From Alphaproteobacteria bacterium (GTDB lineage Bacteria > Pseudomonadota > Alphaproteobacteria > CAAGCB01 > CAG-977), in contig JAFVAT010000028.1 in assembly GCA_017480385.1 (NCBI GenBank), positions 1-64,000 of the forward strand: a stretch of DNA of 64,000 nucleotides, in the 5' to 3' direction. The number at the start of each line of letters is the position of its first letter. Position 1 is the first letter of the stretch. Shown here one piece after another: positions 12,554 through 61,534 of the stretch. Below the pieces are notes generated by a model, which saw only the letters and a list, made by a program, of their open reading frames with translations, was not told the DNA's origin and searched no databases. The position numbers and the translations under genes are program-made.

Positions 12554-15500
12554 ATGGATTTACCGGGATATATCAGGGATTTTCTGCAGACCAACTATTA
12601 CATTTCTGATGAAGACCTTGCTTTGCCGTTCGATCAAATGAAGCCGTATGTACGTGTTCTCATTTCGAATACATGCCTGCGCATGAAAGAAAACGGCGAG
12701 CTGGAACCAAAATCTGAAGAAGAAATTTTGGACGCTGCCCGCCAGCAATTCCATGCGGATATAGACTCGGACATCACCCCCTTTTCAGAAAAACAGCTGC
12801 AAAATTTCATTGATAACCAAAAAGTTTTAATGGGGTTGGCGAAATTAGCAGACAAACAAGATAAAAATCCGTCTGATTTCAGTTCCGTCGCTTCTTTGTT
12901 AACCATAAAGAGAATGACTTCCGAAGAATATGCGGATACGCCGAAGACATTTTCTAATTTTAAAAAAATTCGTGATGAAATTACAACCGAGCTTGAAATA
13001 AAGTATTATACTACCCGCTATTTTGAAGCTCAGGCTCAAGCAAAAACAGATCCGGACACATTGCAGTGTCAGTCTGTGGAAGACATCGCCATTATTTCTC
13101 AAATGGTTCAAACTAGGCAATCCGACAGAATTGCCGCCCGCTTCGGCTTGTCTGATACGCCGCAGGCACGCGCCGCTGCTAAAGGAGCCACATTGTCCTT
13201 TGCCATGGCGGAAGTAAAAACTTTTGCTAATCGTATTGAACAGCGGGTCAAAGAGTCGCCTTATGTTAAAAAAGTCAATGAATTAAACAATACGTTTCAG
13301 CAAAAATATCCTAAAACATATGTTGCGGCTAAAATCATTGCGAACGGTGCCGCAGCCATGACTTTAGGATCAGTCTTTTCGGCTTACCGCGCCGCTGCGG
13401 GCATCAATGGCATGCGCAAAGATTTTTCCGCTTATAAAAAAGAACATCCGGAAGAAAAAGGTAGCTTTTGGAAATTTATACGCAGCCCGAAAGGACGCCA
13501 ACAGTTAATGACCACCGGTCAAAATGTGCTGCGCATTATTCCCGGCATGCGCTCTGTCGGCATTGCTTTAAGTGCGGTTAAAAACTCTGACACCCTGCGA
13601 AACAGCGTCAAAGAAGCAAAAGAAAAAGGATTTGATAAAAAACGTGCCCTCAAAATCGGCGCAGCAGCAGTAGGATTGCTGGCCGTCTCTGTGACAGCGG
13701 CCTATGCCAATGATGAGGTCGCCGATATGGTGAATGATTGTATTTCTCATTCGTTTGGCGCCGTTAAAGACACTGTAGATAATGCCTTTGATTCTATTTC
13801 TTCATTTATTCCTCATTCTGTAGCAGACGCATCAACTCTGCCTGACACGACTGATATTTCCAGTTTAACAGATCACGCATCGACTCTAGCTGACACGGCG
13901 GGCGTCCCTAATTTAACAGAGCAGACGTTCGATTTTAATGATATGCCTTCAGCAGATACACCAAATATTTCAGAACAACTTTCTTCGGCAAATGAGGTAC
14001 CCGCCACAGACTTGGCAGCCGTCGAGCCTCCCGTTTCTCCTGAAGTTGAAGTAAATGCAGCACAGACACCCGCTGTTGATCCGATGACAAAAACGCCTGT
14101 TGTAGAATCGACCGCGGTTGAAACTTCCGCTGCAAATCAAGTCGAAACAAACGATGCCTCAACAACACCTCAGGTCGAAGAACAGTCAGCAGCGGTTGAT
14201 TTGGACAATTCGGCTACAGTTGACGGATCTACTCTGGATAAGAATTATTACAAAGTCGGCGATAATACCATGCTGGTAGAATCTTCTGACGGATCAAACA
14301 CCATTGTATTCGGGAACGGAGATTCTCAGGTTTCTTACCGCTTTATTGAAAAAGAGGACGGTAGTCTGCGTATGGTAACTCAGGGTAATATCTCTGTTGC
14401 TTCTTTGGACGAACAGGATACCGAGCTGTACCATAATCTAGTTGCTCAAGCACAGCAAACCGGGGATCATTCTCCATCCATTGCAGCGCAAAATGCTTTG
14501 AGAGATATCAAGATTGCCGAAGCTATTAAAGCAAACTATGCAGCCAATCCAACACCGGAATTGGAGGCACAATACGCATTATTGTCTCAAGGAGCCGCCA
14601 GACAAGGCGTTGCTCTGGGCGGAATTTCCGAAAACACCGAGGGATTGGAAAGAACCCTTCTGAGATCGGAAACAACAACCATTCACTCTGTATCGATCAG
14701 TTCGACGGGACAGGCATCCGGGACGATTGAACATGCCAACGGCAGCTCAACGTTTATCAACAAACATGATTACGGGACTTCCGTAACCCACAGCACGAGC
14801 GACGGCAACATTCATTCCGTTTCCGTCAAGAAAGACGGCTCCATTAGCGCGAGCGGGATGATTACCCGGGAGGTTGATCCGAACTCTAAGGGAGTGACGG
14901 TCACACGGACAACGTATGATACAAATTTAGGAAGTGCAAGCACCGTTCTGACAGATAATCAGACAGGCGCACACACGACCATACTGCATGACAGCAGTGA
15001 GGACAGTATCCGTTATGAAACCGGGACGGGTAATAATTCCGTTTCAGTTTCTAATACAGCCAGAGGTACGGTAATCAGCGCCAGTACCCGTCATGCCGAT
15101 TTAGGCAACGGAGAAACTTTGAAAGATGCCACGATCAGTTCGACGGGACAGGCATCCGGAACGATTGAACATGCCAACGGCAGCTCAACATTTATCAATA
15201 AACATGATTACGGGACTTCCGTAACTCACAGCACGGGCGACGGCGACATTCATTCTGTTTCCGTCAAGAAAGACGGCAGCATTAGTGCGAGCGGGATGAT
15301 TACCCGGGAGGTTGATCCGAACTCTAAGGGAGTGACGGTCACACGGACAACGTATGATACAAACTCAGGAAACGTGGAAACCGTTTTGACGAATAATCAA
15401 ACAGGCGATCATACTGTTATCCGCCGCACTAACAATGGTGTTTGCTTCAGAAAAGAAAACAATGCCAATCAAAGCAGTACTTCGGTTACGATTGACAACA

Positions 15501-56278: not shown

Positions 56279-58060
56279 TCAGTCTTCCTTCATAAACTGA
56301 ATTTTATAGAGCTGCGCATATATCCCATCGTGGGCCAACAGCTCTTGGTGTGTACCGGAATCGACAATTTTCCCTTCGTTGAAAACATAAATCCTGTCTG
56401 CATTGACAACCGTTGACAACCGGTGCGCAATAATAATGGAAGTTCGCCCCTGCATTAATACCTCCAAGGAATCCTGCACGATCTTTTCCGATTGGGAATC
56501 CAATGCAGAGGTAGCCTCGTCCAACAACAGAATCGGCGCGTTTTTCAACATTGCCCGCGCGATCGAAATCATCTGCCGCTGCCCGCCGGACAGCCCGCCG
56601 CCCTGTTCGCCCAGCATCGTATCGTATCCGTTTTCCATTTGCCGGATAAATTTATCGGCAGCAGCCGCTTTGGCTGCCTCGATCACTTGTTCGTCCGTTG
56701 CATCGGGCGATCCGTAACGGATATTGTTTTTAATCGTATCATTAAACAAAATAACGTCCTGAGAAACATACGCCGTATGCTTTCTTAAACTTTCCAGCGT
56801 GACCTGTCTGATATCCTGCCCGTCAATCAAAATCCGTCCCTGTTGCGGATCATAAAAACGCGGCAAAAAGTTGATCAAAGTCGATTTGCCCGACCCCGAA
56901 TGGCCGACTAAAGCCACCGTTTGTCCCGGTTCAACCGTTAAAGAAACATCTTGCAGAACGGGCTTTTCTCCGTCATAAGAAAAAGTAATCTTTTCAGCTT
57001 CAATTTTTCCTTTGGATACAATCAATTCTTTTGCATCGGGAGAATCTTTTATTGCCGGTTCAATATCCAAGATGGAAAACAGCCGCTGCATTGCAGCGAC
57101 GCCCATTTGCATGCGCATATGCAGATTCGCAACGTTTTTCATCGGCTTGTAAGCGGCCACAATCGCCAGCAAAAACACCATAAAATTACCGGGACTCATA
57201 TGTCCCTGCATAATTTGATAGCCGCCGTATCCCAACGTTGACGCCATGGCAATTCCGCCGAAAAACTCCATTAAAGGGCTTTGCAGCGCATGCAGACAGG
57301 CCATTGAAAAAGACAGCTTGTTCATCTTGACAATCGTATGATCAAGCTCTTGAAATTCCTGATCTTCCGTACAATAAGACTTGACAATTTTAATCCCGTT
57401 AAAGCTTTGGGTCAGCAGATTGAAAAAGCCCTCGTTCGCTTCTTGATTGCGTTTTGTTTTTCTGCGCATTTTCCGCCCGCATAAAACAACCGGATAAACC
57501 CCTAAAGGAAAAACAAAAAAGACAACACACGCCATTTCCAAGGATTGAAAGAACATTAAAATGACTAAAAACACAACCGAGGCCGTATCTTTGACAAACG
57601 TTGTCAAACTGTTCAGCACGGCGTCTTTAACCATAGCCACATCAGACGTAAAACGCGTAATGATTTCGCCGGTAGTATGGTCTTGAAAAAAAGCGTTGTC
57701 CATACGGATCAGGCGCTTGAAAATATCGCGCTGCATATCGGCAATGACACGAATAGACAGCTTTGTCATCACAACGGACTGGGAATAGCTGAACACGCCC
57801 TTCAAAAAATAAAGCCCTAAAATGGTCATACCGATAATGCCCAGGGAAGCTCGGTTCTTATCAATAAAAACCTCATCAAAAATAGGTTTCAGCTGACGCA
57901 CCAGCAGCGCATCAAAACTGGCCGCTGTCAGCATCAGGAAAACAGCCAGAATCAGCCACCGCCATTTATTAGCAATGTACGTATTCCAGACACGCTTGTA
58001 CATCAGCATGTTTTCTTTATTCAATGCTGGCAAGTCTTTATTTTTTTTCACAAAAGCCAT
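56279..58060 (-). CDS. msbA: Lipid A exporter-type ABC transporter (MsbA-like)
   Basis: 593-residue half-transporter with a six-helix membrane domain (residues ~30-330) and a nucleotide-binding domain. VALVGHSGSGKSTLINFLPR is Walker A, LSGGQRQMISIARAM the signature, ILLLDEATSALDS Walker B, and IIAHRLSTV the H loop. It acts as a homodimer in the inner membrane and most likely flips lipid A-core. The original order seems to have been corA-sua5-msbA. It is now separated from sua5 by an inserted ATPase gene, and a perfect -10 element (58192-58197) upstream may supply its promoter. Confidence 0.9.
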   Translation of the reverse strand: MAFVKKNKDLPALNKENMLMYKRVWNTYIANKWRWLILAVFLMLTAASFDALLVRQLKPIFDEVFIDKNRASLGIIGMTILGLYFLKGVFSYSQSVVMTKLSIRVIADMQRDIFKRLIRMDNAFFQDHTTGEIITRFTSDVAMVKDAVLNSLTTFVKDTASVVFLVILMFFQSLEMACVVFFVFPLGVYPVVLCGRKMRRKTKRNQEANEGFFNLLTQSFNGIKIVKSYCTEDQEFQELDHTIVKMNKLSFSMACLHALQSPLMEFFGGIAMASTLGYGGYQIMQGHMSPGNFMVFLLAIVAAYKPMKNVANLHMRMQMGVAAMQRLFSILDIEPAIKDSPDAKELIVSKGKIEAEKITFSYDGEKPVLQDVSLTVEPGQTVALVGHSGSGKSTLINFLPRFYDPQQGRILIDGQDIRQVTLESLRKHTAYVSQDVILFNDTIKNNIRYGSPDATDEQVIEAAKAAAADKFIRQMENGYDTMLGEQGGGLSGGQRQMISIARAMLKNAPILLLDEATSALDSQSEKIVQDSLEVLMQGRTSIIIAHRLSTVVNADRIYVFNEGKIVDSGTHQELLAHDGIYAQLYKIQFMKED

Positions 58061-58122
58061 TTTGCCCCCATTTTTTAAAAGCCGAGCTAGGGTAACATTA
58101 AACCCTTGGATACGTCAAAGCC

Positions 58123-58156
58123 TTAATGCGGATACGCGGCTCTTTTCAGACAGCCG
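58123..58156 (-). repeat. Remnant copy of the sua5 3' end (left flank of islet)
   Basis: 34 bp that match 59584-59617, the true sua5 3' end, at 29 of 34 positions and in the same orientation. It encodes CLKRAAYPH plus a TAA stop, against RLKRAAYPH plus stop in the intact gene. Three of the five differences are silent third-position changes. Confidence 0.8.
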
Positions 58157-58191
58157 CATAAAAAAAGACAACTCTAAAGCAAACATGGGCC

Positions 58192-58197
58192 ATTATA
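58192..58197 (-). promoter_or_regulatory. Perfect -10 element pointing toward msbA
   Basis: TATAAT on the minus strand inside the islet, 132 bp upstream of the msbA ATG. The -35 region (AAAGAC) is poor. It could replace a promoter lost when msbA was cut off from sua5. Confidence 0.4.
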
Positions 58198-58271
58198 GAA
58201 ACAGAACGGTTTCAGTCTTTAATAAAAACGCTTCAAAAGTCATAAGTTTTTATTATTTTTTATAAAAACTA

Positions 58272-58302
58272 TTGACATTTAACATGTTTTTATAAATATT
58301 AA
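58272..58302 (+). promoter_or_regulatory. Promoter of the DUF4143 ATPase gene
   Basis: TTGACA at 58272-58277 is followed by a very AT-rich stretch, TATAAATATTAAAATATTAA. Several -10 options exist (TAAATA at 15 bp, TATTAA at 19 bp), so the exact element is unclear. The ribosome-binding site CGGAGATAT precedes the start. Confidence 0.5.
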
Positions 58303-58324
58303 AATATTAACGGAGATATCGCGC

Positions 58325-59566
58325 ATGAAGGATTTTATCATCAAAAGGCCGCAGTATATAAAGGAATTGTTCAGTTTTAAAGATACCGATTTAATCAAAA
58401 TACTGACAGGCGTTCGCCGCTGCGGCAAATCAACCGTGTATGAACTATATGCCGAAGAATTAAAAAAACAAGGCATATCGCCGGAACAAATCCAAATCAT
58501 CAAACTGGAGGAAGACGAAAATTCCGACCTTTGGGATTATCATAAGTTACACAAACACGTCATGGATCATTCCGTTAAAGGCAAAAAAAACTATGTCTTT
58601 TTGGACGAAATACAAAATGTTGAACATTTCGAAAAAGCCGTCAGAAGCCTTTATGAAAAGAAAAACATCGACCTTTATTTGACCGGTTCCAACTCCAAAC
58701 TTCAATCGGGAGAATGGGCGACCTCTTTAACAGGCAGATACATCGAAATTAAAATGTACCCTCTGTCATTCAAAGAATTTTTATCAATCGCCCCCACCGA
58801 TAATCTGGATAAAGCGTATGCCGATTATCTTGCGTACAGCTCGTTTCCTTACGCTCAATATTTTGTACGTTTAAACACACCGGACTTAAAAAAGCAAATC
58901 GACACCTATCTCAACGGAATTTATGACACGGTGGTTTTGTATGACGTTATGAGCAAAAAGAATATTACAAATGCCGGCAGAATAAAGCGCATCATGAAAT
59001 TTATGGCGGGCAATATCGGTTCGGAAATATCCGTTAAAAAAATGAGCGATATGCTGAAAAATGACGGCATAATCCTTCAGCCGGGCGTGTTAGATGATTA
59101 TTTGGACGCTTTTAAAAATGCCTACATCTGGTATCAGGCGGACAGATATGATGTTCGCGGCCGTAAGGTCTTAAAAACGCAAAACAAGCATTATTTGGTT
59201 GATATGGGCATCAGAAATATGCTTGTAAGCAACAAAATCGGGGACACGGGGCATATCCTTGAAAATGTCGTTTATTTAGAATTGCTGCGCCGAGGCTGCA
59301 AAGTCTATGTCGGCAAAATAGACTATAAGACGAAAGAGAGGAACGGAGCCACAGCGGAAATTGATTTCGTGGCGGAAACACCGGACGGATTAGAATATTA
59401 TCAAGTTTGCGATACGATGAACGATCCGAAAACATTAGAAAGAGAATTGGCTTCATTAAAACTGATAAAAGACAACTATCCGAAATTTATCCTGACCAGA
59501 GATTACGGCACAAAAGATTATGAAGGCATAAAACAACAAAATGTCTTGGAATGGCTTGCCAAATAA
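58325..59566 (+). CDS. AAA_14/DUF4143 family ATPase
   Basis: 413 residues. The N-terminal AAA-type domain carries Walker A GVRRCGKSTVYELYAEEL and Walker B NYVFLDEIQNVEHFEKAVRS. It is followed by LYLTGSNSKLQSGEWATSLTG (sensor region) and YIEIKMYPLSFKEFL. The C-terminal ~200 residues match DUF4143, with a restriction-endonuclease-like end (GATAEIDFVAETPDGLEYYQV). This family is abundant, patchily distributed and of unknown function. Here it is the only gene of a 1.4-kb insertion between sua5 and msbA, on the strand opposite its neighbours and with more AT-rich flanks, which suggests horizontal acquisition. Confidence 0.9.
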   Translation: MKDFIIKRPQYIKELFSFKDTDLIKILTGVRRCGKSTVYELYAEELKKQGISPEQIQIIKLEEDENSDLWDYHKLHKHVMDHSVKGKKNYVFLDEIQNVEHFEKAVRSLYEKKNIDLYLTGSNSKLQSGEWATSLTGRYIEIKMYPLSFKEFLSIAPTDNLDKAYADYLAYSSFPYAQYFVRLNTPDLKKQIDTYLNGIYDTVVLYDVMSKKNITNAGRIKRIMKFMAGNIGSEISVKKMSDMLKNDGIILQPGVLDDYLDAFKNAYIWYQADRYDVRGRKVLKTQNKHYLVDMGIRNMLVSNKIGDTGHILENVVYLELLRRGCKVYVGKIDYKTKERNGATAEIDFVAETPDGLEYYQVCDTMNDPKTLERELASLKLIKDNYPKFILTRDYGTKDYEGIKQQNVLEWLAK

Positions 59567-59583
59567 GATGTCAATCAGCCGTT

Positions 59584-59617
59584 TTAATGAGGATAAGCAG
59601 CTCTTTTCAGACGGTCG
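59584..59617 (-). repeat. Intact sua5 3' end (right flank of islet)
   Basis: Direct-repeat partner of 58123-58156 (29 of 34 bases equal, including 13 consecutive bases GCTCTTTTCAGAC). It forms the present end of sua5. Confidence 0.8.
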
Positions 59618-60525
59618 TTGATTGCCAGCCCCAAGCCATAGGTCGGAATCGGCATCACGGCGATGCCTTTGTATTTCGGGGTGTCCAATTCGCGCATATA
59701 CGCGAACAAGTGCGCGGCGGCCTCTTTCACATCTCCGGACAGGCTGAGGTTCAGCGTCGCGTTTTCCGCTTCGCCGAACGCCAGAAAAGCTTCTCCCTCT
59801 TCGGGTTCCAATGCGTTCAATCTGACCGGCAGGCGCGGCGCGTAATGCGACAACATTTGTCCGGGGGAACGCGGCACGTTCGGATCGGCTTCCGGACGAC
59901 GCAATTTTTTCTTTAACACGTCTTCGATTTCTTCAATGCCGATGCCGCCCGCGCGCAATAAAGCGGGAGAATCTTCCGATACGTCAAGGATTGTCGATTC
60001 CACGCCGACGGCGCATGCTCCGCCGTCTAAAATCAGCGGCACGCGGTCGGCCAACCCTTGCGCGACATGCCGCGCCGTCGTCGGGCTGACCGTGCCGGAA
60101 ATATTCGCGCTTGGCGCCGCAACGGGTTTTCCGAACGCTTCAAGCATTTGCCGCGCCCCCGCATGAACGGGAAAGCGCACGCCGACCGTGTCCAGTCCCG
60201 CGCTGACCAGATGAGAAATCGGGCAGTCTTTCGCCCGCTTCATCACCAGCGTCAAAGGTCCCGGCCAGAACCGTTCCGCCAAAAGCCGCGCGGAAGGCGT
60301 CATTTCAGCGAATTTTTCCACCCACGAAATATCCGCGATATGCGCAATCAACGGATTGAACTGCGGGCGTCCCTTGGCTTCAAAAATCGAAGCAACGGCC
60401 AGATCGTTCGCCGCATCCGCCCCCAAACCGTACACTGTTTCGGTCGGAAAAGCGACCAGTTCCCCCTCCGCCAGCAATTCAGCGGCAAGAGAAATGCTTT
60501 GTTCGTTAACAGGTTCAACGCTCAT
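59584..60525 (-). CDS. sua5: Threonylcarbamoyl-AMP synthase (Sua5/YwlC type)
   Basis: 313 residues that make threonylcarbamoyl-AMP from threonine, bicarbonate and ATP for the t6A37 tRNA modification. The YrdC domain spans residues ~10-200 (LVAFPTETVYGLGADAAN, AKGRPQFNPLIAHIAD, AAPSANISGTVSPTTARHVA). The C-terminal Sua5 domain follows the linker PRSPGQMLSHYAP. It begins one base after the corA-like gene stop. Its last codons (RLKRAAYPH) are duplicated at 58123-58156, on the far side of the ATPase islet. Confidence 0.94.
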   Translation of the reverse strand: MSVEPVNEQSISLAAELLAEGELVAFPTETVYGLGADAANDLAVASIFEAKGRPQFNPLIAHIADISWVEKFAEMTPSARLLAERFWPGPLTLVMKRAKDCPISHLVSAGLDTVGVRFPVHAGARQMLEAFGKPVAAPSANISGTVSPTTARHVAQGLADRVPLILDGGACAVGVESTILDVSEDSPALLRAGGIGIEEIEDVLKKKLRRPEADPNVPRSPGQMLSHYAPRLPVRLNALEPEEGEAFLAFGEAENATLNLSLSGDVKEAAAHLFAYMRELDTPKYKGIAVMPIPTYGLGLAINDRLKRAAYPH

Positions 60526-60526
60526 T

Positions 60527-61534
60527 TCAGTACCATTTTAGCTTTTTCAGAATAAATGCCAGCAGTAATCCTAAAAACAGCAGGATTCCTGACATGAACA
60601 ACAGCCCGTTTTCACTTTCGGCCAAAGGAATCCCGCCGACGTTCATGCCGAACAATCCCGTGATAAACGTCAGCGGCACAAAGATAGCCGCCAAAACGGA
60701 CAGCATATACATATTTTCCTGCGTTTGTTCGCGCACGCGGTTGGACAGTTCGTCCATATTGATCATTGCGCGTTCCCGCAAAGAATCGATGTCTTCGATA
60801 ATACGCATCATGCGGTTGGCGTTTTCCCGCAGCTGATAGCGGTTTTCAACATTCAGCCACGGCATCACCTGACGAGGCAAAACGTCCATGGCGTCCCGCT
60901 GAGGATACAAGTACCGCCGCATCTCCGTTAAATTACGGCGGGCTTCGGACAGCTGCGGCATAAATTCGCCTTCTTCGTCTTCCTCTTCTTCAATAATTTT
61001 ATCTTCAACGTCATCAATAATAACTTCAACACCTGAAACAACGTCCACAATTTTATCCAAAGTAAACGAACAGACTTCATCTAGCAATTCGCCAACATTG
61101 CACGGACCAACACCCGTTTCAAACTCGCGTTCCATGGCAGTCAAAAAGTTCATCGGCGTTTCGCGCAAAGTAATCATGCGACCAGCTTCACACCAAATGC
61201 GCAAGGGAATCATATCGTCGGGTTCTTCACCGGGATTAAGGTTAATGGCACGCAGGAACAACATCAGCTTGTCCCCAAACGATACGCATCGGGGACGATC
61301 TTCCTCTTCTTCAGTCAAACTTTCCAGCGCCAGCGGGTTTATTCCGCTTTTATTTTCCAAAAATTCCTTTGTTCCGGTCGCCAACAGATCCATATGAATC
61401 CACAAAATGCCCTGCTCCGGCGTCCAATTCTGCGCTTCTTCAAAGTTTAAATGTTCTGCCCCGCCCTTGCCATCCAATAACAAAGCAAACAGCAGGCCCT
61501 GATTTTCATCTGCTTTTTTTTCGTCTTCAGACAT
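60527..61534 (-). CDS. CorA/ZntB family divalent-cation transporter
   Basis: 335 residues. A large cytoplasmic N-terminal domain with a long acidic helix (DVEDKIIEEEEDEEGEF) is followed by two C-terminal membrane helices. The pore signature is FGMNVGGIPLAESE. The G-M-N-V-G-G-I-P form is closer to ZntB than to the classical GMN of CorA, so zinc export or uptake is possible. Works as a homopentamer by family. First gene of the corA-sua5 (formerly msbA) unit; divergent from pepA across 156 bp. Confidence 0.88.
   Translation of the reverse strand: MSEDEKKADENQGLLFALLLDGKGGAEHLNFEEAQNWTPEQGILWIHMDLLATGTKEFLENKSGINPLALESLTEEEEDRPRCVSFGDKLMLFLRAINLNPGEEPDDMIPLRIWCEAGRMITLRETPMNFLTAMEREFETGVGPCNVGELLDEVCSFTLDKIVDVVSGVEVIIDDVEDKIIEEEEDEEGEFMPQLSEARRNLTEMRRYLYPQRDAMDVLPRQVMPWLNVENRYQLRENANRMMRIIEDIDSLRERAMINMDELSNRVREQTQENMYMLSVLAAIFVPLTFITGLFGMNVGGIPLAESENGLLFMSGILLFLGLLLAFILKKLKWY

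Follow-up and report, generated by a model that had tools for sequence, protein, structure and literature searches.

A solitary PDC-S01 ATPase gene at a duplicated sua5 3′ end in an uncultured alphaproteobacterial genus

The 64-kb stretch of DNA analysed here (the window), from genome G000, carries a solitary ATPase gene of the widespread, putative anti-phage family PDC-S01 inserted at the 3′ end of the essential gene sua5, and the end of sua5 is present on both sides of it. Sister species either lack the ATPase or carry other cargo at the same place, and this cargo has recently been exchanged between species. In our preferred reading, held with moderate confidence, incoming DNA recombined at this locus and brought the gene and its promoter into the sua5–msbA junction, without a transposase of their own.

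The duplicated sua5 end and the empty sites

The genes corA, sua5 and msbA follow one another on the minus strand, with the ATPase on the plus strand between the last two. corA encodes a CorA-type Mg2+ transporter (60527–61534, minus strand; PF01544), sua5 a 313-aa threonylcarbamoyl-AMP synthase (59584–60525, minus strand; TIGR00057, 195 bits, with Sua5_C) and msbA a 593-aa lipid A ABC transporter (56279–58060, minus strand; TIGR02203, 584 bits, slightly below the cut-off of 602). As the earlier note had claimed, the last 34 bp of sua5 (59584–59617, minus strand) recur in direct orientation at 58123–58156 (minus strand), with 29 of 34 positions identical. Sequence comparison shows that this second copy, hereafter the remnant, also terminates at the stop codon. 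The two ends enclose an islet of 1427 bp (58157–59583, no strand assigned) whose only gene is the ATPase, antisense to sua5; the observation that no integrase lies between the repeats was therefore correct. Between the remnant and msbA is a 62-bp spacer (58061–58122, minus strand), the gap predicted for the rejoined locus, which is homologous in five sister genomes and contains a putative msbA promoter (TTGACG). By our reading of the alignment, a TTGACG/TTGCGT box lies about 5 bp past the sua5 stop in all six genomes compared, and this box would be the msbA promoter.

Three of the five differences between the sua5 ends are silent in the sua5 frame (GCC/GCT, GCG/GCT and CCG/CCT), with the stop codons aligned, again as described; the remaining two are non-silent (GGC versus GAC and TGT versus CGT). 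The ends share an identical 13-bp core, GTCTGAAAAGAGC (58139–58151, minus strand, recurring at 59600–59612). To the right of this core both ends encode the same peptide up to the stop codon, past which they are unrelated in sequence, and to its left the sua5 peptide can no longer be read from the remnant. A recombination joint probably lies inside or beside the core. A hairpin in the remnant scored no better than shuffled sequences.

The repeat is exceptional in its surroundings. A scan of the window for direct repeats (score at least 18, spacing 100–6000 bp) returned only the sua5-end pair and a single repeat internal to a repetitive region, and the same scan of three block-shuffled windows returned none. 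Across whole genomes, a degenerate sua5-end pattern matched two places in G000 and exactly one in each of G001–G006, and the reversed pattern had no match in any of them. Elsewhere in the window, at 14694–15407, a 276-bp segment occurs in two copies, ~90% identical and with 438-bp spacing, in an apparently repetitive coding region.

Seven genomes of the genus (G000 and G001–G006, mostly draft assemblies) were compared, and the synteny of corA, sua5 and msbA is kept in G001 and G003–G006. Three of these (G003, G005 and G006) are empty sites, in which a single sua5 end is followed by a spacer of 61–62 bp and msbA, without the ATPase and never with both sua5 ends, bearing out the earlier proposal that an islet was inserted at the 3′ end of sua5. 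As the spacer of the empty sites is homologous to 58061–58122, the remnant beside msbA sits at the ancestral position. It is also related to the sister sequences: over the last 27 bp it has one difference from G005, and the end in use has three. A proline codon that is CCG in all sister species is CCT in the end in use, which encodes an unchanged peptide and carries silent changes relative to both the remnant and the sister species. These silent changes inside the shared stretch, and homology that stops exactly at the stop codon, make the current 3′ end of sua5 look like a replacement, as it probably is. Its foreign origin is statistically insecure because the stretch is only 34 bp long; sliding divergence along G000 sua5 gave no sharp breakpoint. 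An apparent phylogenetic incongruence across the islet, with the msbA side closer to G003, was dropped because the site patterns fit an ordinary tree shape. A tRNA or other RNA as the insertion target was also rejected, since no tRNA was found in the window, nor any Rfam family between 56000 and 62000. In G002 (L069) gene order is altered at the same sua5 3′ end, with msbA no longer next, and the sua5 3′ junction is thus also a rearrangement point.

The ATPase and its relatives

The ATPase (58325–59566, plus strand) has 413 aa, with Pfam AAA_14 and DUF4143 domains that both score above the cut-off. It is preceded by a predicted promoter/operator with inverted repeats around TTGACA-17-AATATT (58219–58302, plus strand; z −2.5, with upstream conservation). 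PADLOC assigns the protein to PDC-S01 (E = 3.1e-141, residues 1–412, profile positions 6–407, or 402 of 412), a nearly full-length match. The AlphaFold model has a mean pLDDT of 88.5, and its best Foldseek matches are a Sulfolobus STAND-type ATPase (2fna), plant NLR resistosomes and clamp loaders, with Avs5 lower. Among 30 aligned subfamily members the ATPase motifs GxRRxGKS and DE are invariant. In the nuclease-like domain D347 is nearly invariant and Q360 invariant, and the third catalytic motif reads Y-Q-V, the expected lysine being missing in nearly all 30; in this the islet protein differs from the usual PDC-S01. PDC-S01 is described as an AAA ATPase that has a PD-(D/E)XK domain at its C terminus, and is reported to rank fourth in frequency among prokaryotic defence types (PMC12988326). 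A full-text literature search for DUF4143 with ATPase found an incidental mention only. PDC-S01 is a putative single-gene defence candidate, and the PDC-S01 match, the STAND, NLR and Avs5 structural matches and the invariant ATPase motifs together make a defence role for the islet ATPase likely, if unproven. In line with such a role, a PDC-S01-like ATPase (~43% identical) adjoins a BREX operon on an Acinetobacter lwoffii plasmid (L252). Within G000, a second ATPase (L061:4674-6591) is followed by two genes for D12-type adenine methyltransferases, a restriction-modification-like setting.

The family is patchily distributed across the genus, and its close homologues occupy varied positions: ~0.5 kb from a tyrosine integrase (L076), behind tRNA-Gly (L077), near a resolvase-like gene (L078) and adjoining another DUF4143 ATPase (L079). 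The similarity of these homologues, and of a G009 homologue described below, to the window covers the gene and mostly ~80–100 bp upstream, and ends at or a few bases from the stop codon; no terminal sequence beyond gene and promoter is common to them. Likewise, a paralogue in G000 (C28) and its counterpart in G006 (C88) are 88% identical over the gene and upstream region only. This pattern suggests that the ATPase gene is carried by other processes and is not an element with ends of its own. At the threshold used, none of the four closest homologues in public genomes (80–89%) is flanked by a repeat. At the position that in G000 holds another ATPase (C24:86206), G006 (L185:2600-2706, on C74) has a similar A+T-rich upstream region with the gene itself absent, as if lost. 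The question raised earlier, whether this ATPase moves by itself or is moved in trans, can be answered in part: self-movement is not supported, and movement in trans is favoured by the different cargo at the same site (see below), the lack of common ends and the lack of a flanking repeat in most close homologues.

Imperfect palindromic repeats of 20–45 bp, different for each gene, flank other AAA_14/DUF4143 ATPases (L048:1371-2787, L054:1382-2798, L057:1339-2837, L040:1182-2792 and the second ATPase at L079:1393-2729). They were rejected as element ends, being intergenic, gene-specific, mainly at promoters and not on both sides of the window ATPase, and we read them as operators or REP-like sequences, distinct from the duplication at sua5.

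Other cargo at the sua5 stop and gene-end copies elsewhere

G001 and G004 have ~3 kb of other DNA after the same sua5 stop. It encodes a superfamily-1 helicase similar to the GajB and NERD-UvrD defence helicases, a protein of 346 aa with no known domains, and a Cro-type (HTH) regulator. Here the overlap with sua5 is different: the 8-bp end CACTAATC recurs on the msbA side of the insert, compared with the 13-bp identical core within 34 bp in G000. The sua5–msbA junction is a hotspot, holding the ATPase in G000, the helicase, unknown protein and HTH regulator in G001 and G004, and nothing in G003, G005 and G006. A 2.1-kb cassette with the helicase and 346-aa genes, reaching from the sua5 stop to the helicase start codon, is 99.9% identical between G001 and G004, whereas the flanking corA, sua5 and msbA genes are 79%, 87% and 85% identical. 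Given this disparity, the cargo at the sua5 stop was recently exchanged between species without a resident recombinase, none being encoded in the insert or in the exchanged cassette. Divergence is also reduced in the nearest stretch of sua5 and in part of the nearest stretch of msbA, and the exchange would fit homologous recombination through the flanks. The cassette itself (L067:5549-7699 in G001 and the matching part of L066 in G004) is a candidate new defence module.

Minimal mobile elements of Neisseria are alternative cassettes between two conserved genes that are exchanged via flanking homology. The sua5–msbA junction may resemble them in its cassette exchange; it differs in the duplication of one flanking gene end. 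Core defence hotspots, in which a conserved gene pair holds interchangeable defence-type cargo (PMC10250203, PMC10121019), are similar in their swapped cargo; the sua5–msbA site holds one to four genes and is documented in seven genomes only, from one uncultured alphaproteobacterial genus.

The earlier note had also proposed a search for other DUF4143 genes flanked by duplicated ends of a neighbouring gene. Such ends occur in two settings outside the genus studied here. In G009, from another genus, a homologue 79% identical to the window ATPase and carrying an in-frame stop lies behind a flagellin-like gene, and the last 54 bp of that gene region are repeated behind the islet with 48 of 54 positions identical, a repeat that is unique in that genome. 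No usable empty site was found for this case, gene order being different in all relatives. The second setting is a set of predicted viral contigs. In L229 and L230, which are identical over the stretch, a PDC-S01 gene lies behind terL, and a 118-bp copy of the terL end with 8 mismatches starts right after the ATPase stop codon. Seven codons differ, five of them synonymously (TAA/TAG among these), and homology ends at the stop codon. A third contig, L233, shares terL and the ATPase at ~95%, and from the same joint onward its sequence is a different one, in our reading the end of another terminase. Many of 80 related terL loci have extra DNA between terL and the portal gene, yet the repeat accompanies only the ATPase phage (L292, which is the L229 contig) and is absent from the other inserts there. 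The nearest relatives of the two terL copies were uninformative, as other terL genes are too distant and contain indels. Behind the duplicated terL end there is a further ATPase-like gene (L229:6527-7978), which has an EVK motif, so that the terL–portal junction seems to have collected two.

Most relatives, on the other hand, have no such repeat. Flanking repeats were present at 7 of the 73 PDC-S01 loci with long flanks and at 8 of the 177 control genes in their neighbourhood (Fisher p 0.15), and gene-end repeats at 4 of 73 and 2 of 177, respectively (Fisher p 0.06); two of the control repeats lie around genes of similar kinds, one around another DUF4143 gene and one around a SoFic-type gene. 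In L093 and L134 a second copy of the upstream gene's terminator region lies across the ATPase stop, the copies being near-identical and identical, respectively. A SoFic-type Fic gene flanked by a 72-bp direct repeat (L127:1483-2864) raises the possibility that flanking duplications occur more widely at single-gene defence or toxin genes.

Routes to the duplicated end

Recombination of incoming DNA would account for the locus as follows. The donor DNA would have contained the ATPase behind a related sua5 3′ end. On one side it would have recombined through sua5 homology, and on the other an illegitimate join would have formed ~30 bp ahead of the resident sua5 stop. sua5 would thereby receive a recoded, equivalent end, leaving the resident end before msbA together with the msbA promoter. 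With almost no free room in the spacer, an insertion would survive only with a complete sua5 end on one side and an intact promoter and spacer on the other. The divergence between the working end and the now non-coding one is synonymous, suggesting that the two ends diverged while both were coding, in different genomes. Such separate coding divergence is expected if the end arrived with the cargo, whether as an integrase replacement end or through homologous and illegitimate joins. Our preference for the latter, which is moderate, is based on the lack of a recombinase in either insert, the different overlaps, the differing target genes, the recent homologous-type exchange at the junction and a donor-type arrangement in a phage: L305 has terL, ATPase and portal without a repeat, as expected of a donor. 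A decayed terL end behind the L305 ATPase was considered and rejected, as it did not rise above shuffles. No genome was found with the expected sua5 donor, that is, sua5 and the ATPase without the remnant.

Cis-mobilisable and integrase-type islands at gene 3′ ends leave a duplicated end and a replacement end, with homology ending at the stop codon. The islet shares with them gene-end direct repeats at both borders; it differs in having no integrase, a single gene and a different joint for the other insert at the same site. Site-specific integration by a tyrosine recombinase that is encoded elsewhere or lost is a tentative alternative that we consider possible, though doubtful. The current sua5 end would be attL, the remnant attR and GTCTGAAAAGAGC the core, with the replacement end supplied by attP and the islet a cis-mobilisable remnant. 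This would explain why homology ends precisely with the stop codon, why there are silent changes on the side of sua5, and why the remnant is non-coding to the left of the core. We keep this reading because seven PF00589 matches lie elsewhere in the G000 genome and some homologues are in islands, such as those near the tyrosine integrase and tRNA-Gly described above. Against it, neither the islet nor the G001/G004 insert encodes a recombinase, no third copy of the core pattern exists in the G000 genome, and the same architecture occurs at the flagellin-like gene and terL, although one integrase would not recognise unrelated genes. A XerCD/dif module was rejected, the best dif-like scores (14–15 of 22 arm positions) being no better than elsewhere. 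Integration at a gene 3′ end with a replacement end, the pattern originally proposed, thus stands as to the islet, the duplication and the appearance of replacement; a site-specific integrase is not established, because the cargo of G001 and G004 hit the same sua5 end independently with a different overlap, and its cassette was exchanged without a recombinase.

Alternatively, the insertion itself may have copied the resident sua5 end as a long target duplication, possibly driven by the ATPase with its nuclease-like domain, with the copies diverging later. The variable-length duplications (29–118 bp) at several PDC-S01 loci, including the terminator copies at L134 and L093, are consistent with this, and long, variable target duplications are described for restriction-modification (R-M) genes, with insertions in Helicobacter (Nobusato 2000, Furuta 2010) among the cases cited in PMC3031569. 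As in those cases, the islet has a single selfish-type cargo, no recombinase and duplicated target DNA, 34 bp here and longer than a transposon target site; compared with the cases cited there, it is not an R-M system, its copies differ silently and the second copy looks imported, although the silent changes that speak against a resident origin of both copies are at few sites. We nevertheless judge this route unlikely. The remnant of G000, which is free to decay, is closer to the sister species than is the copy under selection, the phage terL differences are mostly synonymous though one copy is now non-coding, and most PDC-S01 loci have no duplication (7 of 73 with a repeat, against 8 of 177 control genes). 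More speculative still, and very improbable in our estimation, is a homing-like behaviour of PDC-S01, in which the protein would use its nuclease-like domain to attack the 3′ end of a particular conserved gene in cells without the ATPase, and its gene would bring a recoded, resistant end that restores the host gene. If true, this would explain the recombinase-free, synonymous end replacement at sua5, the flagellin-like gene and phage terL. An ordinary duplication of the sua5 end, tandem or by chance and with no connection to the ATPase, or else an artefact of assembly, might be suggested by the shortness of the repeat but is scarcely credible given the repeat-free empty sites, the two-copy status unique to G000, the lack of anything comparable in the window or shuffles, the recurrence of the pattern at other loci and the five differing sites, which a collapsed or duplicated assembly does not explain.

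The sua5 locus offers a clear before-and-after comparison of a one-gene insertion with gene-end replacement, to which the neighbouring species add a cassette exchanged very recently at the same site. With it one can test concretely by what means single-gene defence islets travel in the absence of mobility genes and what decides where they insert, and the junction shows how defence-like genes can move without carrying a recombinase.
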